Under the pieces are notes generated by a model, which saw nothing but the letters and a program-made list of their open reading frames with translations, had not been told where the DNA came from and searched no databases. The position numbers were made by a program, and so were the translations under genes. From Jiangella gansuensis DSM 44835 (GTDB taxonomy: Bacteria; Actinomycetota; Actinomycetes; Jiangellales; Jiangellaceae), in the NCBI RefSeq assembly GCF_000515395.1, contig NZ_KI911782.1:2788606-2852605 (forward strand): a DNA stretch of 64,000 bases, in the 5' to 3' direction. Positions 9,282 through 30,601 of the stretch are shown here, piece by piece; position 1 is the first letter of the stretch; every line of letters starts with the position of its first letter.

Positions 9282-10532
9282 GTGCGAGTTCGAGGCTTGG
9301 CGGTGGCGGCGGCTGTTGCGCTGACCGTGACTGCATGCGGCGGTTCCGACGACACGGCCGGCGGTGGCTCGGCCGAGGTCACCGTGTGGATGTATCCCGT
9401 CATCCCGGATCAGGACACGAGTATCGAGTTCTGGGATCAGGTGGAGGCGGACTTCGAGGCCGAGCACGACGACATCGACCTCACCATCGAGCTGCAGCCG
9501 TGGGAGGGCCGCGACGAGAAGATCGCCACGGCCATCGCCTCCGGGCAGGGGCCGGACCTCGTCCTGCTCACGCCGGACCAGACGCTGCAGTACCAGGTGA
9601 CGGGCGGTCTCAAGCCGGTCGACGCCGCGGTCGAGGACTCCCGCGACGCGTACCTGCCGGCAGCGCTGGACGTGGTGACGTTCGAGGACGAGCTGTACGG
9701 CGTTCCGATCTACCACACCAGCACGACAACGGCGTACAACACCGCGGCGTTCGAGGCAGCCGGCATCACCGAGCTGCCCACCACCTGGGAGGACGTGCTG
9801 GCCGCCGCGCCGGCGCTCGCCGCCAACGGGGTGGCCGTCATGGACTACTCCGGGTCTCCGGAAATGACGCTGAACCTGAGCTTCTACCCGCTGCTGTGGC
9901 AGGCCGGCGGCTCGGTGTTCACCGAGGACGGCAGCGATGTCGCGTTCGACGGGCCGGAGGGCGTTGCGGCGCTGCAGTTCCTGCTCGACCTCCAGGAGCT
10001 CGGCGGGCTGCCGGCGGACGCCGCCACCAAGCCCAACGCCGTCGAGGGCGGCCCGGTCGGTGCCGGCACGGTTGCCATGGGCTACGCCATGGCCAAGTTC
10101 GAGATCGAGCAGATGCAGGCCGCCCTGGGCGAGGAGAACGTCGTCGCCGGCGCGCCGCTCACCGGTGAGGAGCAGGTGTCCTTCGGCATCCCAGGGGTGC
10201 TGGCGCTGACGAGCATCAGCGACGACGACGACGCGGCGCTCTCCGTCGCGGAGTACATCTCGTCGCCGGATGTCGCGGTCGGCCTGAACGAGGCCGCCGG
10301 CACGTTCCCGGCCCGCAGCGACGTGGAGCCGCCGGCCGGCGACGAGGTCGTCCAGACGCTGAACGACGCGTTGCAGTACTCCCGCCCGGGTGAGGTGACG
10401 CCCACGGCCCGCCAGGTGATGGCGGTACTGTCGTCGCAGCTGCAGGCCGCGCTGCAGGGGTCGAAGTCGGCTGAGGACGCCCTGGCCGACGCCGCCCAGG
10501 AAGCCCGCGACCTCATCGCCCGAGGCGGCTGA
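9282..10532 (+). CDS. Extracellular solute-binding lipoprotein (family 1, sugar type)
   Basis: Captures a sugar-like solute outside the membrane and delivers it to the two permeases encoded next. It is 416 residues long, with a signal sequence ending in the lipobox LTVTAC (Cys19), so it is lipid-anchored. The mature protein begins with a Gly/Ser spacer and AEVTVWMYPV, the normal first strand of family-1 binding proteins. Later blocks such as ASGQGPDLVLLTPDQ and YGVPIYHTSTTTAYNTAAF also fit MalE/UgpB-like proteins. The GTG start has AAGGAGG upstream. No ATPase gene is nearby; a shared MsiK-type ATPase elsewhere is usual in actinobacteria. The ligand is unknown. Confidence 0.88.
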   Translation: MRVRGLAVAAAVALTVTACGGSDDTAGGGSAEVTVWMYPVIPDQDTSIEFWDQVEADFEAEHDDIDLTIELQPWEGRDEKIATAIASGQGPDLVLLTPDQTLQYQVTGGLKPVDAAVEDSRDAYLPAALDVVTFEDELYGVPIYHTSTTTAYNTAAFEAAGITELPTTWEDVLAAAPALAANGVAVMDYSGSPEMTLNLSFYPLLWQAGGSVFTEDGSDVAFDGPEGVAALQFLLDLQELGGLPADAATKPNAVEGGPVGAGTVAMGYAMAKFEIEQMQAALGEENVVAGAPLTGEEQVSFGIPGVLALTSISDDDDAALSVAEYISSPDVAVGLNEAAGTFPARSDVEPPAGDEVVQTLNDALQYSRPGEVTPTARQVMAVLSSQLQAALQGSKSAEDALADAAQEARDLIARGG

Positions 10533-10563
10533 CAGCCCGTAACCACGGGCAAGGAGACCCGCA

Positions 10564-11469
10564 ATGACTGTGCACCGCCAGGCCGTGCCGCGGCCGTCGT
10601 GGCGGCAGCGTGCCCGCGACCCAGGCTGGGGACTGCTGTTCGTCCTGCCGATGCTCGTGCTCTTCGTGATCTTCCGGTACGTACCGAGCCTCGGCGCGGT
10701 CGGGATGAGTTTCACCGACTACCGGCTCAGCGGAGAGTTCACGTTCATCGGGGCGGAGAACTACCAACGGTTGTTCTCCGACGGCCTGTTCTTCGACAGC
10801 ATGCGGGTCACCCTGATCTACGCGGTCATCTACGTCCCGATCACCGTGGTGGTCGCGCTGGCGACAGCGACGATGCTGCACCACGTGATCCGTGGACGCG
10901 GGTTGTTCCGTGGCCTGTTGTTCCTGCCGTACGTGACGTCGTTCGTGATGGCCGGCATCATCTGGACCTGGATCTACCAGTCCGACGGTCTGATCAACGG
11001 AATGCTGGATCGGATCGGCCTGGGACCGGTCGGGTTCCTGTCCGGCAACCAGGCGATGGTGCTCGGCTCCCTGGCGATCGTCTCGGTGTGGAAGAGCTTC
11101 GGCTACTCGATGCTCATCCTGCTGGCCGGGCTGAAGAACATCCCGGGCGACGTCATGGAGGCGGCGACGCTCGACGGCGCCGGCCCGTGGGGGAAGTTCC
11201 GCCGCATCACGCTGCCGCTGCTGAAGCCGGTGGTGTTCTTCGTCCTGGTCATCGAGACCATCGCCGCCTTCCAGGTGTTCGACACGATCTACGTCATGAC
11301 CGGCGGCGGGCCGGCGCGGGCGTCGTACGGATTGGTGTACATGCTCTACGACCAGGGGTTCAAGTTCTTCGACTTCGGCTACGCCGCCACCATCGGCGTG
11401 GTGCTGTTCCTCGTCGTGTTCGTGATCTCGCTGGTGCAGCGGTACGTCCTGGATCGGGAGAACACGTGA
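10564..11469 (+). CDS. Sugar ABC transporter permease (MalF type)
   Basis: Integral membrane subunit of 301 residues, with about six hydrophobic segments starting at WGLLFVLPMLVLFVIF. The EAA loop that contacts the ATPase is EAATLDGAGPWGKFRRITLPLLKP, near residues 199-222. It starts with ATG behind AAGGAG, 31 bases after the binding-protein gene. It overlaps the second permease by 4 bases (GTGA), so the pair is translationally coupled. Substrate specificity cannot be inferred beyond the carbohydrate-type family. Confidence 0.9.
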   Translation: MTVHRQAVPRPSWRQRARDPGWGLLFVLPMLVLFVIFRYVPSLGAVGMSFTDYRLSGEFTFIGAENYQRLFSDGLFFDSMRVTLIYAVIYVPITVVVALATATMLHHVIRGRGLFRGLLFLPYVTSFVMAGIIWTWIYQSDGLINGMLDRIGLGPVGFLSGNQAMVLGSLAIVSVWKSFGYSMLILLAGLKNIPGDVMEAATLDGAGPWGKFRRITLPLLKPVVFFVLVIETIAAFQVFDTIYVMTGGGPARASYGLVYMLYDQGFKFFDFGYAATIGVVLFLVVFVISLVQRYVLDRENT

Positions 11470-12344
11470 CGACGCTGACCGCACCGCCCGCGCCACCGCA
11501 AGCCGAGACTCCGGCCGGCGGACGGCGCCGCCGCCGGCGCACCGGCATGAACCTCTGGCTGACGCTGCTGCTGGTGCTGGCCTCGGTCTTCACCGTGGTG
11601 CCCTTCGTGGCGGTGATCGTGCTCGCGCTGAGCCCGGAGAACGCGCCGACGATCCCGCAGCAGCTGCCCGACGAGGTCACGCTGGACAACCTGTCCGCCG
11701 TGCTGTCGGCATCGTCGTTCCTGCGCTGGACGCTCAACTCGTTCGTGTACTCGATCGTCTCCGTGGTAGTCATCCTGCTGACCGCCGCCATGGCCGGGTA
11801 CGCCTTCGCCCGCAAGCGATTCCCGGGCAGCAACGCGCTGATGTGGTCGTTCCTGGCCACCCTGATGGTGCCGGCCCAGGCCACGCTGATCCCGATGTTC
11901 GTGTTGGTGTCGCGGCTGGACGGCGTGAACACCTTCTGGGGCCTGATCGTGCCCACGCTGGCGAACTCGCAGGCGGTCTTCCTGATGCGCCAGTTCATCA
12001 AGGGCCTGCCCGACGACCTGTTCGATGCGGCGAAGATCGACGGGGCGGGGGAGTGGACGGTGTTCTGGCGCCTGGTCCTGCCGCTCACCAAGCCGGTCCT
12101 GGCGACCCTCGGCATCTTCGTGTTCCTGTGGCACTGGAATGACTTCCTGTGGCCGCTGGTCATCGCGCAGACCGACGAGATGCGGACACTGACGGTCGGG
12201 CTGTCCACGCTGAACGCCGAGTCGGTGGCCAGGGCGCGGATCATGGCGTCGGCCGCCATCAGCGTGGTCCCGTGTTTGATCATCTTCGGGGTCCTGCAGC
12301 GCTACCTGGTGAACAGCATCGCCACGTCGGGGTTGAAGGGCTGA
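11466..12344 (+). CDS. Sugar ABC transporter permease (MalG type)
   Basis: Second membrane subunit of 292 residues from GTG 11466. The N-terminus is Pro/Ala- and Arg-rich and cytoplasmic, followed by a first membrane span (LWLTLLLVLASVFTVVPFVAVIV). The EAA-type motif is FDAAKIDGAGEWTVFWRLVLPLTKP. It overlaps the upstream permease stop by 4 bases and is followed within 8 bases by an amidohydrolase-like gene, placing transport and metabolism in one operon. The C-terminus NSIATSGLKG is typical of MalG-like permeases. Confidence 0.9.
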   Translation: MTTLTAPPAPPQAETPAGGRRRRRRTGMNLWLTLLLVLASVFTVVPFVAVIVLALSPENAPTIPQQLPDEVTLDNLSAVLSASSFLRWTLNSFVYSIVSVVVILLTAAMAGYAFARKRFPGSNALMWSFLATLMVPAQATLIPMFVLVSRLDGVNTFWGLIVPTLANSQAVFLMRQFIKGLPDDLFDAAKIDGAGEWTVFWRLVLPLTKPVLATLGIFVFLWHWNDFLWPLVIAQTDEMRTLTVGLSTLNAESVARARIMASAAISVVPCLIIFGVLQRYLVNSIATSGLKG

Positions 12345-12352
12345 TCGCTGCG

Positions 12353-13081
12353 ATGCGGGTGTTCGACGCCCACCGGGTGCTCGGGCCGGTCCCGGGTGAC
12401 CTGGTGCCGTCGGCCGACGCCGATGGCCTGGTCGCCGAGCTGGACCATCTCGGGATCGACGGCGCGGCCGTCACCCCGAGCGCCGGGCTGTACGGTGACC
12501 CGACGTACGAGCACGAGGGCCTGGCGGGCCCGGTGCCGGAACGGCTCACCGTCGTCCCGGTGGTGCTGCCGGCGGTGCCCGGTGCCGGCTGGCCGGCCGG
12601 CCCCGGCGACGTCGTCGAGTCGGCGCCGGCGATGGTGCGCACCTGCCCGGTGCGACACCGCTACGCCCTCACCGGGCCGGTGGCGCTGCGCTGGTGGCGG
12701 GAGCTCGCCGCCGCCGGCATCCCGGTGGCGCTGGACGCCGGCGAGTGCGGCCTGGACCGGGTGGGTGCCCTCGCCGCCGCGGTGCCGGGCCTGCGGATCC
12801 TGGTGCTGTCGCCGGGCTATCGCTGCCTGCGCGAACTGACCGAACTCATGGACACCCACGCAGGCGTGCACGTCGAGACGGGCACGCTGGTAGCCGCCGG
12901 TGCGGTGGAGTGGCTGGCCGGACACGCCGGCGCGCACCGGCTGGTCTTCGGCACCGGGGCACCGGTCTGGGACGACGCCGGGCCGCGGTTCCAGCTCGAG
13001 CACCTGCGCCTGCCCACCGCCGACGTCGAACTGATCGCCGCGGGCTCCTTCGACCTGCTGCGCGCCGGGACGCGGTCATGA
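12353..13081 (+). CDS. Degenerate amidohydrolase-like protein (A)
   Basis: The 242-residue protein follows the amidohydrolase_2 (TIM-barrel) layout but lacks its metal ligands. Where active members have HxH after the first strand, this has FDAHRVLGP, losing the second His. Where they have the catalytic Asp (FGTD or FGSD), this has VFGTGAPVW. The overall order and the C-terminal FGTG/LRxG segments still match its neighbour at 13179. It is probably non-catalytic: a partner, scaffold or regulatory subunit. A similar degenerate copy occurs at 21293. The start is ATG 12353, eight bases after the permease gene. No function is established. Confidence 0.65.
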   Translation: MRVFDAHRVLGPVPGDLVPSADADGLVAELDHLGIDGAAVTPSAGLYGDPTYEHEGLAGPVPERLTVVPVVLPAVPGAGWPAGPGDVVESAPAMVRTCPVRHRYALTGPVALRWWRELAAAGIPVALDAGECGLDRVGALAAAVPGLRILVLSPGYRCLRELTELMDTHAGVHVETGTLVAAGAVEWLAGHAGAHRLVFGTGAPVWDDAGPRFQLEHLRLPTADVELIAAGSFDLLRAGTRS

Positions 13082-13099
13082 GCGGTCCCGTCCCACACG

Positions 13100-13159
13100 A
13101 CTTCTGGAGGCTTGTCTACGCTACGAGGCCCCCTGAAAGGTGGACAAGTCTCCAGAAGT
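13100..13159. repeat. 17-bp inverted repeat between amidohydrolase genes
   Basis: Arms 13100-13116 (ACTTCTGGAGGCTTGTC) and 13143-13159 (GACAAGTCTCCAGAAGT) pair at 16 of 17 positions, with a 26-base loop. TACGCT at 13117-13122 could be an internal -10. It may be an operator, an mRNA-processing stem or a dispersed repeat. It sits 19 bases upstream of the next start codon. Confidence 0.6.
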
Positions 13160-13178
13160 GGGCCCGAGGAGGTCCCGC

Positions 13179-13976
13179 ATGAACCCCGTCGTGGACGCGC
13201 ACGGGCACGTCGGCAGCTGGGCCGACTTCTTCGTCCCGCAGCCGGACCCGGACTGGCTGGTCGCCACCAACGAGGCCATCGGGATCGACATCGTCGGTGT
13301 CTCGCATCTGGTGGCGGTCGGCCGCGACGTCCTGGCCGGCAACGAGCTGGCGCTTGGCCTGGCGGAGCGATACCCCGGCCGGATCGGGGTCTGGCTGGTC
13401 GGCGACCCGCACCGCCCGGACGCGCCGGCGACGCTGCGCGAGCAGCTGTCCCGGCCCGGCGTCTGGGGCTTCAAGCTGCACCCGGACACGCACGGCTGCG
13501 CCGCCGACGACCCCCGTTACGACCCCGTGCTCGAGCTGGCCGCCGAGGCAGGGGTCCCGGTGCTCGTGCACGGGCAGAGCGGCTCGCCGCGCGCCGACCC
13601 CGCGCAGTTGGCCGCCCTGGCCGACCGGCACCCGGAGGTTCCGGTCCTGCTCGGTCACGCGGGCCTGTGGCCGGACGGGTTCGACCGGGCCGCCCGGCTC
13701 GCCGCGGCCAGGGCGAACCTGTACCTGGAAATCTGCGGCTCCCGGCTGACGACCCGCTGGCTCGAACGCATGGTGGCGCTGGCGGGCGCGGATCGCGTGG
13801 TGTTCGGTACCGACGCCTGCTTCCTCGACCCGCGGACGGGCCTGGGCAAGGTGCGCTTCGCCCGGCTCACCGACACCGACCGCGCTCAGGTGCTCGGTGG
13901 GACGATGGCGCGGTTGCTCGGGCCGCGGCTCGTGACACCGCTGCATCATGACGCACCCAGGAGCGACGCGAGATGA
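13179..13976 (+). CDS. Amidohydrolase_2 family hydrolase (B)
   Basis: TIM-barrel metal-dependent hydrolase; the family includes sugar lactonases, decarboxylases and hydrolases. The 265-residue protein has VDAHGHVG (His8, His10), then FKLHPDTHG, LVHGQSG, LLGHAGLW and the catalytic Asp in VFGTDACF, so the metal site appears complete. The ATG at 13179 has a strong GAGGAGGT Shine-Dalgarno sequence. It overlaps the aminotransferase start by 4 bases. The intact copy beside degenerate copy A suggests that the two work together. In context, a lactonase-like step on a sugar acid is plausible but unproven. Confidence 0.82.
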   Translation: MNPVVDAHGHVGSWADFFVPQPDPDWLVATNEAIGIDIVGVSHLVAVGRDVLAGNELALGLAERYPGRIGVWLVGDPHRPDAPATLREQLSRPGVWGFKLHPDTHGCAADDPRYDPVLELAAEAGVPVLVHGQSGSPRADPAQLAALADRHPEVPVLLGHAGLWPDGFDRAARLAAARANLYLEICGSRLTTRWLERMVALAGADRVVFGTDACFLDPRTGLGKVRFARLTDTDRAQVLGGTMARLLGPRLVTPLHHDAPRSDAR

Positions 13977-15175
13977 CCACACTGGCCGTCGACGGCGGCG
14001 AGCCCACCCGTAGCGCGGCCTGGCCGGCCTGGCCGCCTGCGGCCTCGCCCGAGCAGCAGGCGCTGCTGGCCGACGTGGTCGAGAGCGGCCGCTGGGGTGC
14101 CACCGCCGGGCCGCTGTGCGACCAGCTGGCCGAGCGGTTCGCCCAGCAGCACGGCGCCCGCCACGGCATCGTGCTGACCAACGGGACCCTGGCGCTGTTC
14201 GTGGCACTGCGCGCGGCCGGGGTTCGGCCCGGCGACGAGGTGGTCATCCCGGCATACACCTTCGTCGCCTGTGCCACGTCGGTCCTGCTGCTCGGCGCGG
14301 TGCCGGTGGTGGCCGACGTCGACGGCGATCACCTGCATCTGACCGCCGAGACGGTGCGCCCCGCACTGAGCGCGCGCACCCGGGCGGTCATGGCGGTGCA
14401 CCTGGCCGGCAGCCCGGCGCCGATGGACGAGCTGGTCGCGCTGGCGGCCGGGCGCGACCTCGCCGTCATCGAGGACAGTGCCCAGGCACACGGCGCCGCG
14501 TACCGGGGCCGGCCGGTCGGCGGCCTCGGCACCGCCGGCACCTTCAGCTTCCAGTCCAGCAAGGCCATGACCGCCGGTGAAGGCGGCCTGATCGTCACCG
14601 ACGACGCCGGCCTGGCCGAGCGCGCGTGGTCGGCCTGCAACGTCGGCCGGACTCGCGTCGGCGCCTGGTACCACCACGCCGACATCGGCTGGAACCTCCG
14701 GATGACGGAGCTGCAGGCGGCCCTGCTGCTGCCGTGGCTGGACCGGCTCGGCGAAGAGGTGGCCGCGCGGGAGGCGTTCGCCCAGGACGTCCAGCTCGGC
14801 CTCGACGCCTGGGACGGTCCGGTGCGGGTGGTGCCCGACCCGCCCGGCACGACGGCGAACTCGCGGCATCTGCTCATGCTGCGGGCGGGCACGGGGGAGC
14901 GGCGGGCGACAGGTGAGGGCGCTCCGGACCGCGAGTGGGTGCTGGCCGCCATGGAGGCCGAGGGCGTGGCGCTGGACGCCGGCTATCCGCCGCTGGGCGG
15001 CATGGCGTCGCTGCGCGGCCAGGTGCGGGCGCTCGCGGCGCCGGGCACCGAGGCGGCCGCACGGGAGGTGTTCTGGGTGCGCCAGCCGTACCTGATGGCC
15101 GGCCCGGACGGCGCGGCGGACGTCGTGGCGGCGGTGCGGCGGGTGTTCGGCGATCGACGCGCTTGGCTGCGCTGA
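13973..15175 (+). CDS. DegT/DnrJ/EryC1/StrS-family PLP aminotransferase (cassette 1)
   Basis: Cytoplasmic PLP enzyme of 400 residues that transfers an amino group to or from a keto sugar or keto-cyclitol. The Schiff-base lysine is K197 in SFQSSKAMTAGEGG. The cofactor Asp is D168 in VIEDSAQAHG, and the N-terminal block is NGTLALFVALRAAGVRPGDEV. It overlaps the amidohydrolase by 4 bases. The family is best known in amino-sugar biosynthesis, but the transporter and aldolases nearby suggest catabolic use here. It is paralogous to the enzyme at 20052, which is paired with its own two amidohydrolases. Confidence 0.88.
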   Translation: MTTLAVDGGEPTRSAAWPAWPPAASPEQQALLADVVESGRWGATAGPLCDQLAERFAQQHGARHGIVLTNGTLALFVALRAAGVRPGDEVVIPAYTFVACATSVLLLGAVPVVADVDGDHLHLTAETVRPALSARTRAVMAVHLAGSPAPMDELVALAAGRDLAVIEDSAQAHGAAYRGRPVGGLGTAGTFSFQSSKAMTAGEGGLIVTDDAGLAERAWSACNVGRTRVGAWYHHADIGWNLRMTELQAALLLPWLDRLGEEVAAREAFAQDVQLGLDAWDGPVRVVPDPPGTTANSRHLLMLRAGTGERRATGEGAPDREWVLAAMEAEGVALDAGYPPLGGMASLRGQVRALAAPGTEAAAREVFWVRQPYLMAGPDGAADVVAAVRRVFGDRRAWLR

Positions 15176-15321
15176 CGCGCGGCGGCAGACCCGCATTCCG
15201 GCACACACGCGACAAAGCCACGGCCGGCGTCCCTCAATGTGAGACTTTCGGTTGCGCTTGACCGGGGGCCGTGACTGATCATGGTCGCAAGCGTTGTCCC
15301 ACCACACTGGCAGGAGTGGCG

Positions 15322-15459
15322 ATGGGTCAGAAGCTGGGTAAACGGTTCATGATCGCGTTCGGTCTGGGCCTGGTGTTGGCCCTGATCTTCGACCATTCAG
15401 CCGCGGGTTTCGCCGTGGGATTCGCCATCGTCTTCGGGGGCGGCCTGGCCGCGGAATGA
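15322..15459 (+). CDS. Small glycine-rich membrane protein
   Basis: A 45-residue protein, MGQKLGKRF followed by one long hydrophobic, glycine-rich helix region (MIAFGLGLVLALIF, then AAGFAVGFAIVFGGGLAAE). ATG 15322 has AGGAG five bases upstream; a GTG six bases earlier is the alternative. No conserved motif is recognised. The two hydrophobic stretches could form a hairpin. It stands alone between the aminotransferase and a palindromic repeat. The function is unknown. Confidence 0.6.
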   Translation: MGQKLGKRFMIAFGLGLVLALIFDHSAAGFAVGFAIVFGGGLAAE

Positions 15460-15460
15460 C

Positions 15461-15524
15461 TGTCCCGTGATCATGTTCCCTCGCGGGCACATGCGGCCCG
15501 TTAGAGGACATGATCATGGGGACA
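15461..15524. repeat. TGATCATG palindromic repeat (left of the AbiEi-like gene)
   Basis: TGTCCCGTGATCATGTTCCC faces a near-complement ending ATGATCATGGGGACA, forming an imperfect hairpin. The block TGATCATGTTCCCTCGCGGG is identical to the repeat at 16548-16609, on the other side of the next gene. Confidence 0.75.
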
Positions 15525-15593
15525 GCGCGAAGTTGTCCACAGATCGGCTGACCCCACTCGCACACAGTGGCGCCGGGACGGACGATCGCGGTC

Positions 15594-16556
15594 ATGGATC
15601 TACCGTCGAAGCTGCGCACGCCAGCCGCGGTCGGGTTGCTCGAGCGCCAGTCGGGGCTCATCAGCATCGTCCAGCTCCGCACCCTCGGGTTCGACGGACG
15701 GTCGGCTCGGCGGCGGGTGACGCGAGGGCGCTGGCAGCGGCCGTTCCGCGGCGTCTTCGCGACCTTCAGCGGCCCGCTCGACCGCGACGCGCAGATCTGG
15801 GCGGCGATCCTCGCCGTCCATCCGGCAGCGGTCGCCAGCCACGCCACGGCGGCCGAGCTCGATGGTCTCACCGGGCGGGTCGACGATCGGATCCACGTGA
15901 CCGCTCCGGTCAGCCGGCGCGTCCGCGGCTGCCTGGACGGCGTCGTGGTGCATTACGCCCATCGGCTGCAGCTGTCCCGGCACCCGGCCGCGAACCCGCC
16001 GCGCACCAGGCTCGACGACACCGTCCTGGACCTCGTGGACACCGCACGACGGGCCCGTAGCGTCGAGTCGTACGTCACCATGGCGGTGCAGAAGCGCCTG
16101 ACGACACCGGCGCGCCTGGCGGCCTCGCTGATGGCGCGCAAGAAGATCCGCTGGCGGTCCTTGGTCGAGTCGATGCTGGCGGACGTCGCCGACGGCGCCC
16201 ATTCGCCGCTGGAGCTCCACCACCTGCGAGCCGTGGAGCGTGCACATGGGTTGCCGAAGGGTGTCCGGCAGCGCCGTCGCGCCGGCGCCCGGGTCGTCTG
16301 GATCGACGTCGACTACGAACGCTTCGACACCAGAGTGGAGCTGGACGGCCGGCTCGGCCACGAGGGCGATGGCCGGTTCCGGGACCGGCGCCGCGACAAC
16401 GCCGGTACGGTCGGCGGCGCGTGGACGCTGCGCTACGGGCATGCCGAAGTCTTCGGCCAGCCGTGCCAGGTGGCCGTGGAACAGGCCAAGGTGCTGCGGG
16501 ACCGGGGCTGGGCCGGCCGGCCCCGGCCGTGCGGGCAGACCTGCCCCATCCCTTGA
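15594..16556 (+). CDS. Type IV TA AbiEi-antitoxin-domain / DUF559-like protein
   Basis: 320 residues from ATG 15594. The N-terminus resembles the AbiEi antitoxin wing-helix region (LLERQSGLISIVQLRTLGF, then RRRVTRGRWQRPFRGVFATF). The C-terminal part has VDVDYERFDTRVELDGRLGH followed by RFRDRRRDN, a pattern of Vsr/DUF559-like PD-(D/E)XK nuclease folds. Actinobacterial genomes carry many such solitary proteins, and their role is unclear. There is no adjacent AbiEii toxin. The stop codon lies in the TGATCA core of the following hairpin. Confidence 0.7.
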   Translation: MDLPSKLRTPAAVGLLERQSGLISIVQLRTLGFDGRSARRRVTRGRWQRPFRGVFATFSGPLDRDAQIWAAILAVHPAAVASHATAAELDGLTGRVDDRIHVTAPVSRRVRGCLDGVVVHYAHRLQLSRHPAANPPRTRLDDTVLDLVDTARRARSVESYVTMAVQKRLTTPARLAASLMARKKIRWRSLVESMLADVADGAHSPLELHHLRAVERAHGLPKGVRQRRRAGARVVWIDVDYERFDTRVELDGRLGHEGDGRFRDRRRDNAGTVGGAWTLRYGHAEVFGQPCQVAVEQAKVLRDRGWAGRPRPCGQTCPIP

Positions 16557-16609
16557 TCATGTTCCCTCGCGGGCGCGTACGGACCCCCGAGGGAACATGA
16601 TCAAGGGAT
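16548..16609. terminator. Perfect 22-bp hairpin, palindromic repeat/terminator
   Basis: Arms 16548-16569 and 16588-16609 are perfect reverse complements around an 18-base loop. The preceding gene's TGA stop is inside the left arm. There is no U-tract. It shares its TGATCATGTTCCCTCGCGGG core with 15461-15524, so it belongs to a repeat family and probably also terminates transcription. Confidence 0.7.
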
Positions 16610-16622
16610 GGAACGGCACATC

Positions 16623-16661
16623 TTGACATCGGAGCTCGCGACAAAATACGGTCTGGACCGT
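16623..16661 (+). promoter_or_regulatory. Promoter with palindromic operator
   Basis: TTGACA (16623-16628) and TACGGT (16647-16652) have an 18-base spacer. The perfect dyad ACGGTC-TG-GACCGT (16648-16661) overlaps the -10 and start point. Its position argues for repression. Because the promoter lies inside the upstream part of the open frame, the true start is GTG 16686 with AAAGGA before it. Confidence 0.65.
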
Positions 16662-16685
16662 AACTGTTGCGAGAAAGGATGCCGG

Positions 16686-17702
16686 GTGCACAGCATCGAG
16701 GAGCTGGACGAGCGGTTGTCGCGGCCGCGGCCGGGGCTGGTCGAGGACCTGCGTCGCCTGGACGGCGATATCGTCGTCCTCGGCGCGAGTGGCAAGCTCG
16801 GGGTGAGCCTGGTGCGGCTGGCCGTCCGAGCGGTCGCGGAGGCCGGTACCAACGCCAGGGTGACCGCGGTGTCGCGGTTCACCGCCCCCGGATCGTTCGA
16901 GGCCATGCAGGCCACCGGCGCGGACGTGGTGGCCGCCGACGTCGGCGACGACGACGCGCTGGCCGCACTGCCCGACGCCGCCAACGTCGTGTACCTCGTC
17001 GGGGCGAAGTTCGGCACCGACGGTCACGAGGCAGGCACGTGGGAGACCAACGTCTACCTGCCCGGCCGGGTGGCGCGGCGCTACGCGGGCTCCCGGTTCA
17101 GCGCGCTGTCCACCGGCAACGTGTACCCGCTGGCCTCCGTCGGCACCGGGGGTGCCACCGAGGACACCCCGCCCGGCCCGGTGGGGGAGTACGCCATGTC
17201 GTGCCTCGGCCGCGAGCGCATCCTGCAGGCGGCGTCCGAGCGCGACGGCACGCCGATGGCCATCATCCGGCTCAACTACGCCGTCGAGATGCGCTACGGA
17301 GTGCTCGTCGACCTCGCCCAGACCATCGCCGCGGGGGAGCCGGTCGACCTGACCACGGGCCACGCGAACGTCGTCTGGCAGGGCTACACCAACGAGGTGA
17401 CGTTGCGCGCCCTCCTGCACGCCTCCACACCGCCCTTCGCGCTCAACCTGACCGGTCCCGAAACGTTGTCGATCCGGCAGGTCGCCACCGACCTGGCCGC
17501 GGCCCTCGGCGAGCCGGTCACCTTCACCGGAGCGGAGGCAGCGACGTCGCTGCTGTCCAACGCCGCGCGGTGCCACGGCCTCTTCGGCTATCCGGACGTG
17601 ACGGTGCCCGAGCTCGTCGAGGCCACCGCGCAGTGGGTCCGCAAGGGGCTGCCGACCCTCGGCAAGCCGACCAAGTTCCAGCAGCGCAACGGGAAGTTCT
17701 GA
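16686..17702 (+). CDS. NAD(P)-dependent epimerase/dehydratase (extended SDR)
   Basis: Rossmann-fold sugar-modifying enzyme of 338 residues from GTG 16686. The nucleotide-binding loop is VVLGASGKLGVSL, preceded by about 20 residues of helix. Later segments such as NVYPLASVGTGGATEDTPPG and LNLTGPETLSI follow the extended SDR pattern, but I do not see a clean YxxxK: YAMSCLGRERI is in its place, with Arg where Lys is expected. That could mean altered chemistry. The stop overlaps the next ATG by one base, so it is coupled to the aldolase-like gene. A role in sugar oxidation or epimerisation is inferred from context. Confidence 0.72.
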   Translation: MHSIEELDERLSRPRPGLVEDLRRLDGDIVVLGASGKLGVSLVRLAVRAVAEAGTNARVTAVSRFTAPGSFEAMQATGADVVAADVGDDDALAALPDAANVVYLVGAKFGTDGHEAGTWETNVYLPGRVARRYAGSRFSALSTGNVYPLASVGTGGATEDTPPGPVGEYAMSCLGRERILQAASERDGTPMAIIRLNYAVEMRYGVLVDLAQTIAAGEPVDLTTGHANVVWQGYTNEVTLRALLHASTPPFALNLTGPETLSIRQVATDLAAALGEPVTFTGAEAATSLLSNAARCHGLFGYPDVTVPELVEATAQWVRKGLPTLGKPTKFQQRNGKF

Positions 17703-18742
17703 TGACCATCTCCGCCCTGGAGCGGTTCCGGGCCGGGGGCGTCGTCCCCGCCCACCCGCTCGCCCTCGACGACGACCGCAAGCTCGACGAGCGTCGACAG
17801 CGGGCGCTGGCCCGCTACTACATCGAGGCCGGCGCCACCGGCCTGGCGGTCGCGGTGCACACCACCCAGTTCGCGGTGCACGAACCCGGTCGAGGGCTGC
17901 TGGCCCCGGTGCTCGAACTGGCCGCGGGCGTCGCCGACGAGTACCCGCAGCAGCGTCCGGTCATGGTCGCGGGCCTGGTCGGCCCGGCCGAGCAGGCCGT
18001 CGCCGAGGCGGAGCTCGCCGCCGGGCTGGGATACGACCTCGCGCTGCTCACGCCCTACGGCGTCGGCAGCGCCAGCGAGGACGAGCTGATCGAGCGGGCC
18101 CGGGCCGTCGGCGAGGTGCTTCCGGTCATCGGGTTCTACCTGCAGCCGGCGGTCGGCGGCCGGGTGCTCGGCCGGACGTTCTGGCGGCGGCTGGCCGAGT
18201 TGCCGTCCGTCGTCGGCATCAAGGTGGCGCCGTTCGACCGCTACGCCACCCTCGAGGTGGTGCACGGCGTGGCCGCTTCGGGCCGGGCCGGCGACATGGC
18301 CCTCTACACCGGCAACGACGATCACATCGTCACCGATCTCGTCACCACGTACCGGGTCGACGGCCAGGAGCTGACGCTGGTCGGCGGCCTCCTCGGCCAG
18401 TGGGCGGTCTGGGTGCGCGGGGCGGTCGAGACGCTGGCCGCGGCGGAGCGGGCCAGGGCGGGCGACGACGCCGCGCTGCGCCGGCTGCTGGAGCTCAACC
18501 CGGTGCTCACCGATGCCAACGCGGCCATCTTCGACGCCGCCAACGCATTCCGTGGCTGCGTGCCCGGCATCCACGAGGTGCTGCGCCGGCAGGGACTGCT
18601 GGCCGGCGTCTGGTGCCTGGAGGAGGACGAGGTGCTGTCGCCGGGTCAGCTGGCCGAGATCGACCGGGTGTGGGCGGCCTACCCGCAGCTGCGCGACGAC
18701 GACTTCATCGCCGAGCGACTGGACCGGTGGCTCAACGCCTAG
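17702..18742 (+). CDS. Dihydrodipicolinate synthase family aldolase (1)
   Basis: TIM-barrel lyase/aldolase of 346 residues. Members use a Schiff-base lysine to condense or split pyruvate-containing compounds. The lysine is K174 in VGIKVAPFDRYA. The N-terminus GGVVPAHPLALDDDRKLDERRQ and AGATGLAVAVHTTQF fit the family, but the usual GTTGE segment is replaced, so the substrate is unlikely to be that of DapA. It is coupled to the SDR gene upstream. Its 3' end overlaps the convergent regulator by 4 bases (CTAG is read as TAG on both strands). It is likely catabolic, for a deoxy-keto sugar acid or similar. Confidence 0.82.
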   Translation: MTISALERFRAGGVVPAHPLALDDDRKLDERRQRALARYYIEAGATGLAVAVHTTQFAVHEPGRGLLAPVLELAAGVADEYPQQRPVMVAGLVGPAEQAVAEAELAAGLGYDLALLTPYGVGSASEDELIERARAVGEVLPVIGFYLQPAVGGRVLGRTFWRRLAELPSVVGIKVAPFDRYATLEVVHGVAASGRAGDMALYTGNDDHIVTDLVTTYRVDGQELTLVGGLLGQWAVWVRGAVETLAAAERARAGDDAALRRLLELNPVLTDANAAIFDAANAFRGCVPGIHEVLRRQGLLAGVWCLEEDEVLSPGQLAEIDRVWAAYPQLRDDDFIAERLDRWLNA

Positions 18743-19971
18743 AGGGTGACCCGGTACAGCGTCAGCGGCCGGCCGATGGTCCCGGACTCGAGGCTGCCGG
18801 ACCGTTCGGCGCAGCCGGCCAGCTCGAGGCGCTGCAGCATCCGCCGCGCGGTGCGCAGCTGGACCCCGAGCCCGTCGGCGATGTCGCGGGTGGTGAGCGG
18901 GCGGTCGCCGCTGGCCGCGGTGATCTCGCGCAGGCGGTCGAGGGTGGCCACCGACAGTCCCACCCGGCTGGCGACGACGGCCCGGCTCTGCTCGGACACC
19001 GGAGCCTCGGCCGGCGCCACGGCCTCCAGCAGGATGTCGACGTCGTTGCGCGAGGACACCACCGCGGCGACGTCGCCGTGGTTGCGCGCGCGGGCCAGCG
19101 CGCGGCGGGCCAGCCGCTCGGCCTCGGCTCCGCTGTGCCCGAGACCGAAGCCGATGCGGACGACGTCGTGCCGGGGGCTCAGCCGGTGCAGCAGCGGCAG
19201 CGCGGTGAATCCGTGCGACGCGTCGTGCAGTGGCCCGCGGGTGGTGACGATGAGGGACATGGTGTCGGAATACCGGGACAGCGAACCGCCGAGCATGCCG
19301 ACCTCGCGGGCTAGGTCGGCATGGTCGTTCGCCGTGGCCGGGCTGAGTTCGACCAGCCCCAGCGCCACCTGGGAGTCCTCCTGGATCTGGCTGGTGGCGG
19401 TCAGCAGCAGCTGGCGCAGCGCACCACGCACAGACTGCGGCGACGGCGCCAGCCGGAACGCCGGCAGCTCGCCGGCGAGCTCGTCGTGCACCGACGCCAG
19501 GCAGGTGACGGCGACGGCCCCGGGGTGGCGGGCGACATGACGGCGGTGGAACGCGACGAAGTCGGCCGCCGTGGCACCGGGCCGGTAGGGCATGGTGCGC
19601 ACGCCGCCGGTCGGGACGCCCGCATCGGTCAGGGTGTCGTGGACCTGCGCGGTGTCGAGGGTGTCGACCGACAGCGCCGTCACGTCGGAGCCGTCGCGCA
19701 GCAGCCGCACCAGTGCCTGCAGCAGGGTCGAACCGCTGTAGTCGACGAACGTCGCCGGGCGGGTCAGCGCCTCGTGCGCGATGGTGTACGGGACGATGCC
19801 GGTGAACAGCCAGGCGTCGACGCCGGATGCATGAGTGGTGACCAGGCCGGGCGCCTGGGTCTCGTGGTCGTAGTCGAACCGGTGCACGCGTACGCCGGCC
19901 TGCTCCTCGCACACGGCCGCGACGCTGTCGACCAGGTCATGCGGGCCGACGACGCCGATCGAGGTGTCCAT
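18739..19971 (-). CDS. Transcriptional regulator with C-terminal winged helix and unusual sensor region
   Basis: 410 residues. The C-terminus (LTTRDIADGLGVQLRTARRMLQRLELAGCAERSG) is a clear winged-helix DNA-binding domain. The first 130 residues look like a ligand-sensing alpha/beta domain (IGVVGPHDLVDSV, AWLFTGIVPYTIAHEAL). The middle has GFGLGHSGAEAERLARRALARA, reminiscent of GGDEF- or GTP-cyclohydrolase-III-like domains in PucR/CdaR-type regulators. I do not recognise a named family. It lies between the SDR/aldolase operon and the divergent second aminotransferase cassette, the natural local regulator for both. The transcript is probably leaderless. Confidence 0.65.
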   Translation of the reverse strand: MDTSIGVVGPHDLVDSVAAVCEEQAGVRVHRFDYDHETQAPGLVTTHASGVDAWLFTGIVPYTIAHEALTRPATFVDYSGSTLLQALVRLLRDGSDVTALSVDTLDTAQVHDTLTDAGVPTGGVRTMPYRPGATAADFVAFHRRHVARHPGAVAVTCLASVHDELAGELPAFRLAPSPQSVRGALRQLLLTATSQIQEDSQVALGLVELSPATANDHADLAREVGMLGGSLSRYSDTMSLIVTTRGPLHDASHGFTALPLLHRLSPRHDVVRIGFGLGHSGAEAERLARRALARARNHGDVAAVVSSRNDVDILLEAVAPAEAPVSEQSRAVVASRVGLSVATLDRLREITAASGDRPLTTRDIADGLGVQLRTARRMLQRLELAGCAERSGSLESGTIGRPLTLYRVTL

Positions 19972-19983
19972 GCGACCACTTTA
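19972..19983 (-). promoter_or_regulatory. -10 element TAAAGT of the regulator gene
   Basis: On the minus strand TAAAGT (complement of 19978-19983) is followed by six bases and then the ATG at 19971. There is no Shine-Dalgarno sequence, so a leaderless transcript is likely. Confidence 0.5.
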
Positions 19984-20014
19984 ACCAGCCGTCCACCATT
20001 TCGGGCGGGGCCGA

Positions 20015-20020
20015 TACGAT
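20015..20020 (+). promoter_or_regulatory. -10 element TACGAT of aminotransferase cassette 2
   Basis: TACGAT at 20015-20020 overlaps an ATG at 20019, so that ATG cannot be the start if this promoter is real. TGTACGTA follows at 20020-20027 and may be a small operator. The chosen GTG at 20052 has AAAAGGAG upstream. Confidence 0.45.
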
Positions 20021-20051
20021 GTACGTACCCGAAAAGGAGCTGACACCAACC

Positions 20052-21296
20052 GTGGACGTCCTCGCGATCGACGGCGGCAACCCGATCCGGCCCGCCGACA
20101 GGCCGCTGCCGTCGGCCACCGACCCCGCCGGGCGGACCTTCGGCCCGGAAGAGGAAGCCGCCGCTGTGCGGGTGCTGCGCAGCGGCATGCTCTCCGGCGT
20201 GTGGGGGAGCGAGGTGCCGGCCCTCACGACGCAGTTCGCCCAACTCGTGGGTTCGCCTCATGCCGTCGCGTGCAGCAGCGGCACCGCCGCCCTGCACCTG
20301 GCCGTCGCCGCCGTCGACCCCGACCCGGGTGACGAGATCATCCTCCCGCCCATCTCCGACATGGGCACCGTCGCCCCGGTGATCGCGCAGAACGCCGTCC
20401 CGGTGTTCGCCGACGTCGACCCCGCCACCGGCAACATCGACCCGTCGTCGGTGGCCGCGCTCATCGGGCCGCGCACCCGCGCCGTCATCGCCGTCCACCT
20501 GTTCGGCAAACCGGCCGCGGTGGAGCGGCTGCGGGCGATCACCGACCGCGCCGGCATCACCCTGATCGAGGACTGCGCCCAGGCGTACCTGGCCCCGGTG
20601 CGCCCGGGGGAGCCCGACGGACCGCTTGTCGGCACCGTCGGACAGCTGGGCTGCTTCAGCCTGCAGCAGTACAAGCACGTCACCACCGGCGACGGCGGCC
20701 TGGTCACCACCGCCGACCCGGAGCTGGCCGCCCGGATGCGCCGGTTCGCCGACAAGGGTTGGCCCCGCGAGACCGGCGAGCGCGCGTACCTCTCCTTCGC
20801 GCTGAACTACCGGATGACCGAGCTGGTCGCGGCGGTGGCTCGCGAGCAGCTGCGCAAGCTGCCCGGTGTGGTGGAGCGCCGGCGGGTCACCGCGGCCGAG
20901 GCGACGAAGCGGCTGGCCGGGCTGACCGGGCTCGGCCTGCCGGCTGACATCGGCGACCACGTCTACTGGTACTACCCACTGCTGGTCGAGGGCCTCGACG
21001 AGGCCGGGCTGGCCCGGTACGCCGCCGCGCTGAGCGCCGAGGGCGTCCCGGCCGTCGGCGGCTACCTCGCCCGCCCGCTGTACGCCGAGCCGGTGTTGCG
21101 TGAGGCGCGCACGTACGGCACCTCCGGCTACCCGCTGCGCGACCGGGCCGGCTACCCGGACGGGTTGTGCCCGGTGGCGGAGGACCTGGTCTACCGTCGC
21201 CTCGTGGTGGTGCCTTGGAACGAGAACTACACCGCGGCCGACGTCGACGACATCGCCGCGGCGATCGCGAAGGTCCACGCGGCGGTGGCGCCGTGA
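20052..21296 (+). CDS. DegT/DnrJ/EryC1/StrS-family PLP aminotransferase (cassette 2)
   Basis: 414 residues from GTG 20052. The PLP lysine is K208 in LQQYKHVTTGDGG, the cofactor Asp lies in LIEDCAQAYL, and the N-terminal anchor is ACSSGTAALHLAVAAV. The C-terminal WNENYTAADVDDIAAAI resembles aminotransferases acting on cyclitols or AHBA-type precursors, but the resemblance is too general to name a substrate. The gene overlaps the next (degenerate amidohydrolase) by 4 bases. The cassette order here is aminotransferase, degenerate, intact; in cassette 1 it is degenerate, intact, aminotransferase. Confidence 0.87.
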   Translation: MDVLAIDGGNPIRPADRPLPSATDPAGRTFGPEEEAAAVRVLRSGMLSGVWGSEVPALTTQFAQLVGSPHAVACSSGTAALHLAVAAVDPDPGDEIILPPISDMGTVAPVIAQNAVPVFADVDPATGNIDPSSVAALIGPRTRAVIAVHLFGKPAAVERLRAITDRAGITLIEDCAQAYLAPVRPGEPDGPLVGTVGQLGCFSLQQYKHVTTGDGGLVTTADPELAARMRRFADKGWPRETGERAYLSFALNYRMTELVAAVAREQLRKLPGVVERRRVTAAEATKRLAGLTGLGLPADIGDHVYWYYPLLVEGLDEAGLARYAAALSAEGVPAVGGYLARPLYAEPVLREARTYGTSGYPLRDRAGYPDGLCPVAEDLVYRRLVVVPWNENYTAADVDDIAAAIAKVHAAVAP

Positions 21297-22009
21297 ACGG
21301 TGAGCTCCTCGACTGCGACCTGCTCATCGGCCGCGACATCCGCACCGCCGTCCGGGTCACCGCCGGCGAGCTGGCCGCCACGCTGGCCGGCACCCGCATC
21401 TCCGGCGGTGTGGCCGGCTCGCTGCGGGCGTTGCTGTTCGACGCACCGAGCGGCAACGACGAGGCGGCCGCGGCCGCTGCGGACCACGGATGGTGGCCGG
21501 CCGCCGGCGTGGACCTGCGCGACCCGTTGACCGCGCTGGCCGAAGTGGAACGGGCGGCCGCCGCCGGGGTGCGGGCGATCCGGCTGGCACCGGCGCGCCA
21601 GGAGGTGCCGCCGACGGTGCCGGGCCTGCGCGCCGTCGTCGCGGCGGCGGTGGCGCACGGGCTACTGGTGCTCGCCGAGGGCGACCTCCGGCTGGTCGGG
21701 CCCGCGCTGCGCGGTCTCGGTGCGCGGGTCGTCTTCCTGGACGCCCACTTCTACCACCTGGGCGACTTCATCCTGCTGGCCCGCGAGGAGCCCGGCTTCC
21801 ACGCCTCCACCCGGCTGCTCGGCAACCCGGACGGCTGGGAGCTCGTGGCCGGCTCGGTGGGTGCCGAACGGCTGGTGTTCGGCAGCCGGCCCGGCTGGTT
21901 CGAGGCCGGCGCCGTGCTGGCCCGGCTGGACACCGCGCGGCTGTCCCCGTCCGAACTGGACCTGGTGACGGGGCAGAACCTACGCCGGCTGCTGGAGGGG
22001 GCATCGTGA
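21293..22009 (+). CDS. Degenerate amidohydrolase-like protein (A')
   Basis: 238 residues from GTG 21293, overlapping the aminotransferase stop. It has the TIM-barrel amidohydrolase outline with the metal sites lost. The first-strand motif is LLDCDLLIGRD instead of DxHxH, and the catalytic Asp position reads VFGSRPGWF. Segments such as AIRLAPARQEVPPTVPGL and LVLAEGDLRLVG replace the usual His-bearing loops. It resembles the protein at 12353 in size, losses and position beside an intact copy. It is probably a non-catalytic partner of the protein at 22006, with which it overlaps by 4 bases. Confidence 0.65.
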   Translation: MNGELLDCDLLIGRDIRTAVRVTAGELAATLAGTRISGGVAGSLRALLFDAPSGNDEAAAAAADHGWWPAAGVDLRDPLTALAEVERAAAAGVRAIRLAPARQEVPPTVPGLRAVVAAAVAHGLLVLAEGDLRLVGPALRGLGARVVFLDAHFYHLGDFILLAREEPGFHASTRLLGNPDGWELVAGSVGAERLVFGSRPGWFEAGAVLARLDTARLSPSELDLVTGQNLRRLLEGAS

Positions 22010-22740
22010 TCGTCGACGTGCACGGCCACTGGGGCCCGTGGTTCTTCTCCAGCGATGTCGGTGACGCCGCCGAGAACCTGCGCGTCATGGACACCTATGG
22101 CATCGACGTGCAGCTCGTGTCGGCCGTCGAGGCGGTCGTCTACGACCCGTCGAGCGGCAACGAGGCCTTGATCCCGGTGCTGCGCGCACAGCCGCGGCTA
22201 CGCGGGCTGTTCGTCGTCGACCCGCGTGATCTCGACCTCGCCGCGCGGCAGCTGGCCGAGCTGCTGCCGACGGGGTTGTTCGTCGGCGCGAAGATCCACA
22301 CCCACTACGCCGGCACACCCGGTGGCGCACCGGGCATGGCCGCGGCGCTGGAGCTGCTGGCCACACACGACCTGCCCGCGCTGGTGCACACGTGGGGCGA
22401 GGAGGTCGTCGGCCTGGCCGACGTCGTGGCCGCGGTGGAGGGCGCCCGGGTAGTGGCAGCACATCTCGGCGGGCCGGCCTGGCCGCTGGTCCCCGAGGCG
22501 GCCGAGCGGACCGACCGATTGTGGTTCGAGCCGTGCTGGTCCACCCCCGCCGCCGGCCGGGTGCGCTGGGTGCTGGACCGCATCGGCGCGCACCGGCTGA
22601 TGTTCGGCAGCGACGCCACCCTGATCGACCCGTCGGTCACGCTCGCCGCGGTACAGGCGGCGGAACTCACCCCCGCCGAGGAGGAGCTCGTCATGTGGCG
22701 CAACGCCGTGGACGTCTTCCGCCTGCCGCCCCCGAAATGA
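22006..22740 (+). CDS. Amidohydrolase_2 family hydrolase (B')
   Basis: 244 residues from GTG 22006. Metal ligands are intact: VDVHGHWGPW (His6, His8), AKIHTHYAG, LVHTWGE, VAAHLGGP and the catalytic Asp in MFGSDATLID. The AHLGG segment is the usual barrel strand. The gene overlaps A' by 4 bases and ends in the cassette-2 operon. The TGA stop lies in the TGATCA core of repeat R3. A lactonase, decarboxylase or C-N hydrolase role is possible; sequence alone does not choose. Confidence 0.82.
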   Translation: MIVDVHGHWGPWFFSSDVGDAAENLRVMDTYGIDVQLVSAVEAVVYDPSSGNEALIPVLRAQPRLRGLFVVDPRDLDLAARQLAELLPTGLFVGAKIHTHYAGTPGGAPGMAAALELLATHDLPALVHTWGEEVVGLADVVAAVEGARVVAAHLGGPAWPLVPEAAERTDRLWFEPCWSTPAAGRVRWVLDRIGAHRLMFGSDATLIDPSVTLAAVQAAELTPAEEELVMWRNAVDVFRLPPPK

Positions 22741-29650: not shown

Positions 29651-30601
29651 GTGGCGAACTCTCGAGACGTGACGGAGCTGACCGGGCGGCTGCGGTGGTC
29701 GCTGGTGGCCGCAGCCGCCACCCCGATGCGGCCCGACGGGCGCACCGATCCGGACGTCTGCGAGGCATATTTCCGGCACCTCGTCGGCTCCGGCGCGAGC
29801 GCGCTCGCGATCGGAGCGCACACCGGCCGCGGCGCCCGGTTGGACGTCTCCACCAAAGCGGAGCTCGTCCGCCGGGCGGCCGCGATCGGGGTGCCGGTGG
29901 TGGCGGGCGTCGGCGGCAGTGTCGACGGCCCCGACGCCGACCTGGAGTGGGCCGGCGCCGCCGCGGCCGCTGGCGCCGACACGCTGCTCGTATCCCCGCC
30001 CATCGACCTCGACGCCGACGCCGTCGTCGCGCACTACGACCAGCTGTGGGAGGCCAGCGACCTGCCACTGATCGCGTTCGACCTGTATTCGCAGCCCTTC
30101 ACCCCGGCGCTGCTGGACCGGCTGCTGGACCACCCCGGCGTGGCGGCGTTCAAGCCCGCCCGGCTGTTCGACGCCGTCGCCTGCCAAGAGGGCATCGCCG
30201 CCGCCCGCGCCCGCGGCCGGCTGGTGCTCACCGGCGAGGACCGCATGTTCGGCCCGTCGCTCATGTGGGGTGCCGAGGGGGCCTTGGTGGGGCTCGCGGC
30301 TGCCGCGGCGCAGGTGTCCGCGGCGGCGGTCGAGACGTTCGCATCGGCCGTGCACACGTCGGCCCGGGATGCCGCCGCGCGCTTCCTGGAGGTGTCGGCC
30401 GTCGTGGACGAGCTGGCCCGGGTGACCTTCCGGCCACCGTACGACGGATACGTGCAGCGGATGCTGTGGCTGGCGGTCGACGAAGGTGCGGTGCCCGAGG
30501 AGTTCGCCATCGACCCCTACCGTCCCGCTGAACTCGAGGACGCCGAGCGGGACGAGGTCGTCCGCGTCGTGCGGCAGTGCCGCGACCAGGTGCGCCGGTG
30601 A
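29651..30601 (+). CDS. Dihydrodipicolinate synthase family aldolase (2)
   Basis: 316-residue TIM-barrel lyase/aldolase. The Schiff-base lysine is K168 in GVAAFKPARLFDAVA. The N-terminus AAAATPMRPDGRTDPDVCEAYFRHLV is family-typical. The usual GTTGE loop is IGAHTGRGARLD, so the substrate is not that of DapA. It differs clearly from the paralogue at 17702. It stands between the propeller gene and rarA with its own promoter. With the Gfo/Idh protein at 31994 it may form a second part of the sugar pathway. The substrate is unknown. Confidence 0.82.
   Translation: MANSRDVTELTGRLRWSLVAAAATPMRPDGRTDPDVCEAYFRHLVGSGASALAIGAHTGRGARLDVSTKAELVRRAAAIGVPVVAGVGGSVDGPDADLEWAGAAAAAGADTLLVSPPIDLDADAVVAHYDQLWEASDLPLIAFDLYSQPFTPALLDRLLDHPGVAAFKPARLFDAVACQEGIAAARARGRLVLTGEDRMFGPSLMWGAEGALVGLAAAAAQVSAAAVETFASAVHTSARDAAARFLEVSAVVDELARVTFRPPYDGYVQRMLWLAVDEGAVPEEFAIDPYRPAELEDAERDEVVRVVRQCRDQVRR

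Follow-up and report, generated by a model that had tools for sequence, protein, structure and literature searches.

Two Gene Units in the Analysed Window

The window analysed here is the whole stretch of 64,000 nucleotides of the Jiangella gansuensis DSM 44835 genome, and it holds two gene units, each of which encodes an aminotransferase of DegT type, a member of Amidohydro_2 (PF04909) in which every metal ligand is present, and an adjoining ligand-less homologue. The ligand-complete proteins are designated I1 and I2 and the ligand-less homologues D1 and D2. The genes of the units and of the surrounding cluster are the following.

9282..10532, + strand: SBP_bac_1 substrate-binding protein of a sugar-type ABC importer (PF01547, 1.1e-31), with relatives at many related loci
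10564..11469, + strand: ABC permease 1, named by eye
11466..12344, + strand: ABC permease 2, named by eye, GTG start chosen
12353..13081, + strand: D1, metal-free Amidohydro_2 homologue (putative pseudo-subunit), 242 aa, AF2 mean pLDDT 90.3, amidohydrolase TIM-barrel matches
13179..13976, + strand: I1, Amidohydro_2 protein with complete metal ligands, 265 aa
13973..15175, + strand: DegT1 aminotransferase, Lys of FSFQSSK kept
16608..17702, + strand: NAD-dependent epimerase/dehydratase family protein of the conserved cluster (PF01370, 6.8e-11)
17702..18742, + strand: DHDPS-family protein of the conserved cluster (PF00701, 2.3e-07)
18739..19971, - strand: probable winged-helix regulator of the conserved cluster, with sub-cut-off HTH matches only (residues 338-392, best 3.3e-04)
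20052..21296, + strand: DegT2 aminotransferase (GTG start; alternative ATG at 20019), Lys of FSLQQYK kept
21293..22009, + strand: D2, metal-free Amidohydro_2 homologue (putative pseudo-subunit), 238 aa, AF2 mean pLDDT 94.3, amidohydrolase TIM-barrel matches
22006..22740, + strand: I2, Amidohydro_2 protein with complete metal ligands, 244 aa
29651..30601, + strand: second DHDPS-family protein, assigned by Pfam

Both DegT proteins were assigned to PF01041 with E-values below 1e-76 (3e-82 and 1.8e-77), and the Lys residues of their motifs are those which we take to be PLP-binding. I1 (1.2e-32, 114.3 bits), I2 (1.9e-23, 84.1 bits), and D2 (4.6e-07, 30.3 bits, above the 26.4-bit cut-off) match PF04909, while D1 stays just under the same cut-off (3.7e-05, 24.1 bits), its predicted fold still matching amidohydrolases. 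The composition of the two units described in the first-pass annotation is thus borne out by coordinates, Pfam matches, and ligand columns. The same annotation had reported a gene order that differs between the units, which is true of the DegT position only, since unit 1 runs D1-I1-DegT1 and unit 2 runs DegT2-D2-I2, with D located 5' of I in both; the 4-base overlaps it had reported are present at I1/DegT1, DegT2/D2, and D2/I2, whereas 97 bases lie between D1 and I1.

Metal Ligands, Predicted Fold, and Selection

Seven ligand columns were followed, which in I2 numbering are H6, H8, K96, H98, H128, H153, and D203. I1 and I2 are complete in all of them, including the HxH motif, the later His, and the Asp, and the columns are retained at 97-100% each in 39 I1 sequences (one of them cut by a contig end) and at 100% in 78 I2 sequences. 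D1 reads H/V/R/C/D/S/G and D2 reads D/L/R/A/E/D/R at these columns, so that the active-site set of HxH, later His, and Asp is present in neither. The earlier statement that both copies had lost the HxH and the catalytic Asp holds for the Asp in D1 and D2, but D1 retains the first His of the HxH. When 39 D rows were aligned, as had been proposed for finding metal ligands in the degenerate copies, no ligand column was conserved, individual rows retaining one or two ligands, and the commonest letters were N (0.44), L (0.41), R (0.79), F (0.28), D (0.44), G (0.31), and G (0.51).

The D families keep near-invariant residues of their own (38 D1 and 81 D2 sequences), for example GTGAP in D1 and STR in D2, and in the D2 family a near-invariant Arg occupies the position of the catalytic Asp. 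The closest folds to the predicted D2 monomer include ACMSD structures, and the AibH1H2 structure 8ful is among the fold matches of both D1 and D2. Solved relatives of D sought by sequence gave no strong match, with the best E-values of 0.0078 for D2 and 0.049 for D1. In comparison of the window with 6 Jiangella loci the dN/dS values were 0.21-0.30 for D1, 0.18-0.32 for I1, 0.20-0.44 for D2, and 0.14-0.28 for I2, and the D genes are under purifying selection.

Pairing and Fusion of D and I across Genomes

With few exceptions D is accompanied by its own I, in gene neighbourhoods that differ. Among 78 loci with both D2 and I2, the window included, the two genes overlap by 4 bases in 65, by 7 bases in 10, and by 1 base in 3, and for D1 and I1 an overlap of exactly 4 bases is present in 30 of 38 loci. 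In a survey of 345 genomes of the window's class (thresholds of 1e-40 for I and 1e-25 for D, the best 7 or 8 candidates per genome being scored) the same 19 genomes matched both D and I; these genomes are related, as 12 belong to the window's genus, itself counted, and four families are spanned. A D match was located upstream on the same strand, at -1 to 474 bases from the matched stretch, for 43 of 44 I matches, after exclusion of four of 48 search rows that lie on I genes. Ten further D-I pairs were found among the matches listed in a distant low-GC actinobacterial family, one I of these being cut by a contig end and another broken, and one record of Subdoligranulum (Bacillota) also carries a D-I pair. 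A plasmid search with a low-GC D as query gave no match.

D and I also occur as one polypeptide in seven genomes of the window's genus, with linkers of 28-155 aa, and in the four fusions with mapped ligands the D half is without ligands and the I half is complete. The same fused design is found in the archaeon Halomontanus rarus (WP_276256030.1). None was seen in the window or in the 80 loci scanned first; the fusions came from later searches.

D without an adjoining I was found at four loci in four genomes. One of these genomes (L072) contains no I relative at 1e-8, and the other three (L076, L193, and L194) contain I-like matches elsewhere only, with best values of 3e-22, 2e-32, and 4e-27. 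Family f16 (L187 and L188) contains a degenerate copy in reversed order that falls outside the D group in the tree and looks like a separate case.

Phylogeny and Origin of D

In three trees of 75-93 rows D1, D2, and the distant D rows cluster together with support of 100/98, 100/97, and 100/99, and the I rows also cluster together with bootstrap values of 93-98. One sequence with a poor reading frame (out_L108) was excluded from the trees and eight near-duplicates from the last one; L133 and L196 contributed no I row (contig end, broken frame), and two I-like rows of L128, which fell with the outgroup in the first tree, were kept out of the I group afterwards. The distances among D run parallel to those among I (r=0.95 over 26 pairs), a value reached in 0 of 5000 permutations. 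Because the D rows group, the I rows group, and the distances mirror each other, it is probable, as far as the sequences indicate, that one old D-I pair was duplicated as a unit.

Grouping of D1 with I1 was rejected in the AU test (p 0.043; after inclusion of the fusion halves and of L211, p 8e-06), while grouping of D2 with I2 was borderline and not firmly rejected (p 0.049, 0.033, and 0.066). The phylogeny of the amidohydrolases had been named as the check on whether the ligands were lost once or twice, and the three trees together with the AU tests disfavour independent loss in D1 and D2, with the reservation for a D2+I2 clade given by its p of 0.033-0.066. The earlier suggestion that an inactive partner was retained twice independently is disfavoured with it.

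Comparison with Known Systems and the Probable Role of D

It had been stated that no system of this form is described. This does not hold, since 2-aminoisobutyrate hydroxylase AibH1H2 of Rhodococcus wratislaviensis is a heterotetramer of two PF04909 homologues encoded by neighbouring genes, where AibH2 is catalytic, AibH1 is proposed to be noncatalytic, and no product is formed without AibH1 (PMC7782822, PMC10401708, PMC12141560). Among the literature matches listed there is no description of the D-I pair or cluster itself. In Pseudomonas aeruginosa aspartate transcarbamoylase the activity and stability of the partner depend on an inactive chain resembling dihydroorotase (PMC7053772), but the active partner there is a transcarbamoylase, whereas here it is the pseudoenzyme's own paralogue. 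ACMSD, a metal enzyme of amidohydrolase fold, is inactive as a monomer, and its activity depends on dimer formation, since an Arg that binds the substrate comes from the neighbouring subunit; it differs in being a homodimer of about 330 aa with two active sites (PMC9021598).

We consider it likely that D and I are two subunits of one heteromeric metalloenzyme, in which metal-free D is the partner of I. The heteromer proposed in the first-pass annotation is indirectly supported by strict pairing, gene overlap, mirrored trees, and natural fusions, but its original argument, retention in two separate instances, falls away. Distant bacteria and an archaeon show the pairing again, at times as a fusion, which makes it probable that the dead partner is a functional subunit of the enzyme. 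We infer a physical D-I complex in which I would be the catalytic PF04909 subunit, with metal bound by the HxH and the later His, Lys, and Asp positions, and D, a metal-free copy that probably arose once and long ago, would be inherited with it as adjacent or overlapping genes or as a fused chain. On the model of a homodimer such as ACMSD, D would most likely take the place of the second subunit in contact with I, stabilise I, and probably lend residues to the I active site or to a regulatory ligand site; the supply of residues in trans is only an analogy with ACMSD.

It is unlikely, yet deserves attention, that D is instead a metal-free enzyme of a neighbouring step, so that the fusions would be bifunctional and no subunit dead. 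The many invariant polar residues of the D families, the constraint on D1 equal to that on I1 by dN/dS, and the occurrence of D genes without adjoining I agree with such an enzyme, and gene overlap and fusions are compatible with two consecutive enzymes as well. LigI is an active hydrolase by itself. It provides a PF04909 example of the amidohydrolase fold without metal or cofactor (PMC10811679), but it is not known to form a pair of dead and live proteins. A separate enzyme is opposed by the absence of any ligand position conserved over the D rows, by the modest conservation over all D, and by the tie of D to its own I in varied neighbourhoods.

The chance that D is a ligand-sensing regulatory subunit, switching I on or off with a pathway metabolite, appears quite low. 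On the predicted barrel fold each D family shows invariant Arg and Glu residues of its own, possibly forming a sugar-acid-binding pocket, but sequence alone cannot separate this role from the heteromer reading preferred above.

An AibH1H2-like oxygenase with a noncatalytic subunit is very improbable despite the shared Pfam family, adjacent genes, division into catalytic and noncatalytic subunits, and the 8ful fold match, and it was rejected on the strand-1 motif and gene context. According to PMC7782822 strand 1 carries Asp-x-His in AibH2 (Asp25/His27) and AibH1, in contrast to His-x-His in the I1 and I2 families; AibH1 retains metal (Asp24, His26, His201, Glu255, and Asp328), whereas D lost the set; the subunits are of 373 and 378 aa versus about 240 aa here. 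The hydroxylase also works with a ferredoxin and its reductase, whereas no Rieske-family gene lies near this cluster, the nearest of the four genome-wide matches being about 0.48 Mb away. A reading of D1 and D2 as duplicates in decay, preserved by chance, has a negligible probability, since despite the missing catalytic residues their open frames, purifying selection, invariant residues, confident predicted folds, and presence in distant groups rule out pseudogene status.

More tentatively, and with slightly less credence than doubt, the D-I proteins may constitute an unrecognised ancient enzyme class of Bacteria and Archaea in which the active site of the catalytic paralogue is completed in trans by a pseudo-amidohydrolase without metal; the class would have been disseminated as a unit among many operons for carbohydrate breakdown and fused more than once. 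If the heteromer reading is right, many proteins that now carry the annotation of a lone amidohydrolase would each be the inactive half of a heteromer, and the activity would go unseen when only the intact half is expressed. With fusions that occur naturally and subunits of small size, the pseudoenzyme role is directly testable.

Putative Pathway of the Cluster

The window holds two D-I pairs that are paralogues, both next to a DegT gene of their own, in a cluster with the importer, NAD-epimerase-family, and DHDPS-family proteins. The cluster probably serves the degradation of an imported compound resembling an amino sugar or a sugar acid, and D-I pairs would, if the reading is right, be markers of a sugar-type catabolic route of actinobacteria not yet characterised. 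The DHDPS-family protein at 29651..30601 perhaps belongs to the same pathway, as suggested by the gene order of another locus (L057), where by Pfam match and gene order a DHDPS-family gene (9999-10886) sits within the cluster.

Two Paired-Amidohydrolase Units

The genome is a single contig of 5.59 Mb, and the first-pass annotation was right that the window holds two units, each encoding a DegT aminotransferase (DegT1, DegT2), an Amidohydro_2 (PF04909) protein with all metal ligands (I1, I2), and an adjacent homologue lacking them (D1, D2):

12353-15175: unit 1, in the order D1-I1-DegT1
20052-22740: unit 2, in the order DegT2-D2-I2

By Pfam and alignment the ligand positions of PF04909 are present in both I1 and I2; in D1 the HxH motif is replaced by HxV and the catalytic Asp by Gly, and in D2 by DxL and Arg, respectively. 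D1 and D2 share 69–85% identity with their best relatives in Jiangella. Since identity is only 37% between DegT1 and DegT2 (280 residues compared) and only 30% between I1 and I2 (246 residues compared), sequence comparison identifies the units as old paralogues and excludes a recent duplication. The tRNA-Gly called by ARAGORN at 21829-21918, within the D2 coding sequence, is probably a false positive, because the D2 reading frame is conserved.

Origin of the Degenerate Copies

The inactive partner was initially supposed to have been retained independently in the two units. Three trees were built after removal of the ligand columns (30, 39, and 37 D rows; 26, 35, and 33 I rows), and in each of them all D rows, D1 and D2 included, formed one group (support 100/98, 100/97, and 100/99), as did all I rows (98/92, 97/87, and 93/93). 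Constraining D1 with I1 was rejected (p 0.043, and 8e-06 once the halves of fused proteins and locus L211 were included), and constraining D2 with I2 was borderline (p 0.049, 0.033, and 0.066). A single loss is thus favoured rather than proved, given the long branches present, and what has been kept many times is the D-I pair. Over 26 pairs in the tree with 39 D rows the D-D and I-I distances correlated at 0.95 (best of 5000 permutations 0.33), which mostly shows matching pair families, because rows within a pair family are not independent.

In f16, a family of actinobacteria, a degenerate amidohydrolase copy follows an intact one (L188:2965-4490 and L187:7813-8562; intactness checked in L188). 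In this degenerate copy LxM replaces HxH and Met replaces Asp; its rows are placed outside the D group, and it is perhaps a second origin of a dead partner.

Pairing and Natural Fusions

A D2 profile scan of one genome per species gave 89 relatives, from which 80 loci were kept. The D2 and I2 genes overlap in all 78 loci holding both, and an adjacent I2 is missing for 3 of 81 D2 genes, the window included (L072, L076, and L024, which lies at the end of a contig); because D2 was used to choose the loci, the count is hardly informative about I genes that lack a D. For a less biased test the I and D profiles were searched separately in 345 genomes of the class: the same 19 genomes matched both, and the other 326 matched neither. 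A same-strand D match lies upstream of 43 of the 44 I matches; the unpaired I (at a contig start) and one unpaired D belong to a single fragmented assembly. These figures represent few independent events, since scoring covered the best 7 or 8 candidates per genome and the 19 matching genomes fall into four families, with twelve of the genomes in Jiangella.

A distant actinobacterial family of low GC content contains ten further pairs, none of them near a DegT match in the stretches examined. According to Pfam, a class II aldolase adjoins one of them, and an FGGY sugar kinase, URO-D, and a xylose-isomerase-like protein stand beside two others; importers judged by eye to be of ribose type also lie near. 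One pair occurs in a Subdoligranulum record (Bacillota).

In seven Jiangella genomes D and I are joined in one open frame (L200-L206) by linkers of 28–155 residues, several of which contain short repeats. In all four fusions mapped the D half is without ligands and the I half ligand-complete, and an annotated 636-aa protein of the haloarchaeon Halomontanus rarus has the same design.

A Putative Heteromer

The best reading of D-I is a putative heteromer, in which the metal would sit in I and D would occupy the position of the other subunit in an ACMSD-like dimer. The substrate-binding Arg of ACMSD is donated by the neighbouring subunit and the monomer is inactive (PMC9021598); AibH1H2 needs a noncatalytic PF04909 subunit beside the catalytic one, and metal-site changes in the former render the protein insoluble (PMC7782822, PMC10401708, PMC12141560); and Pseudomonas aeruginosa aspartate transcarbamoylase needs an inactive dihydroorotase-like chain (PMC7053772). 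Unlike AibH1, D has lost the metal site, and unlike the P. aeruginosa pseudo-dihydroorotase it partners its own paralogue. A dead amidohydrolase-fold subunit required by its partner is therefore of a known kind, contrary to the initial statement that no such system had been described, while for this D-I version, its spread, and its fusions no description of the pair or cluster was found in the literature searched. PF04909 chemistry is varied (PMC10811679), so several reactions are possible for I.

Counting against a partner role, D stands without an adjoining I in four genomes (L072, L076, and low-GC L193 and L194). No I relative was found in the L072 genome at 1e-8, and in the other three I-like matches lie elsewhere in the genome (best values 3e-22, 2e-32, and 4e-27, respectively). 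In L076, moreover, D2 lacks the Arg that nearly always replaces the catalytic Asp. Conservation over all D rows, which likewise weighs against the heteromer, is modest: the strand-1 Asp (100%), one Pro and one Glu (97% each), an Arg close to the final strands (92%), the two residues of a GN motif (90 and 87%), and some Gly residues.

Gene Neighbourhood and Candidate Pathway

Among the 80 loci, many from Jiangella, Nonomuraea, Streptosporangium, and Pseudonocardia share much of the cluster: the sugar-type ABC importer (starting at 9282 in the window), D1-I1-DegT1, D2-I2, DegT2, a regulator, and DHDPS-family and epimerase-family proteins. Kribbella, Ruania, and Brachybacterium loci have unit 2 alone of the two units within the stretches examined, and in some of these loci a relative of the regulator, DHDPS, or importer is present. 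Near plasmid-borne DegT2 relatives of Rhizobium and Azospirillum (L091-L093) altronate dehydratase and a DHDPS-family protein occur in 3 of 3 records examined and an annotated shikimate dehydrogenase in 2 of 3. These surroundings point to the probable breakdown of a compound resembling a sugar acid or an amino sugar.

A protein whose two halves look by eye like ABC ATPases is encoded at 6398-8080, a short distance upstream of the importer, and a similar one precedes the importer genes in Haloactinopolyspora (L018:2854-4491). Unit 1 and the epimerase-family gene have the gene for an AbiEi_4-matching protein (15567-16556) between them. Two large proteins, by eye probably secreted, are also present:

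24569-27064, minus strand: DUF6923/propeller-repeat protein
27184-29616, plus strand: DUF6923/propeller-repeat protein

In Kribbella L023 and in L054, repeat proteins of this type also adjoin unit 2.
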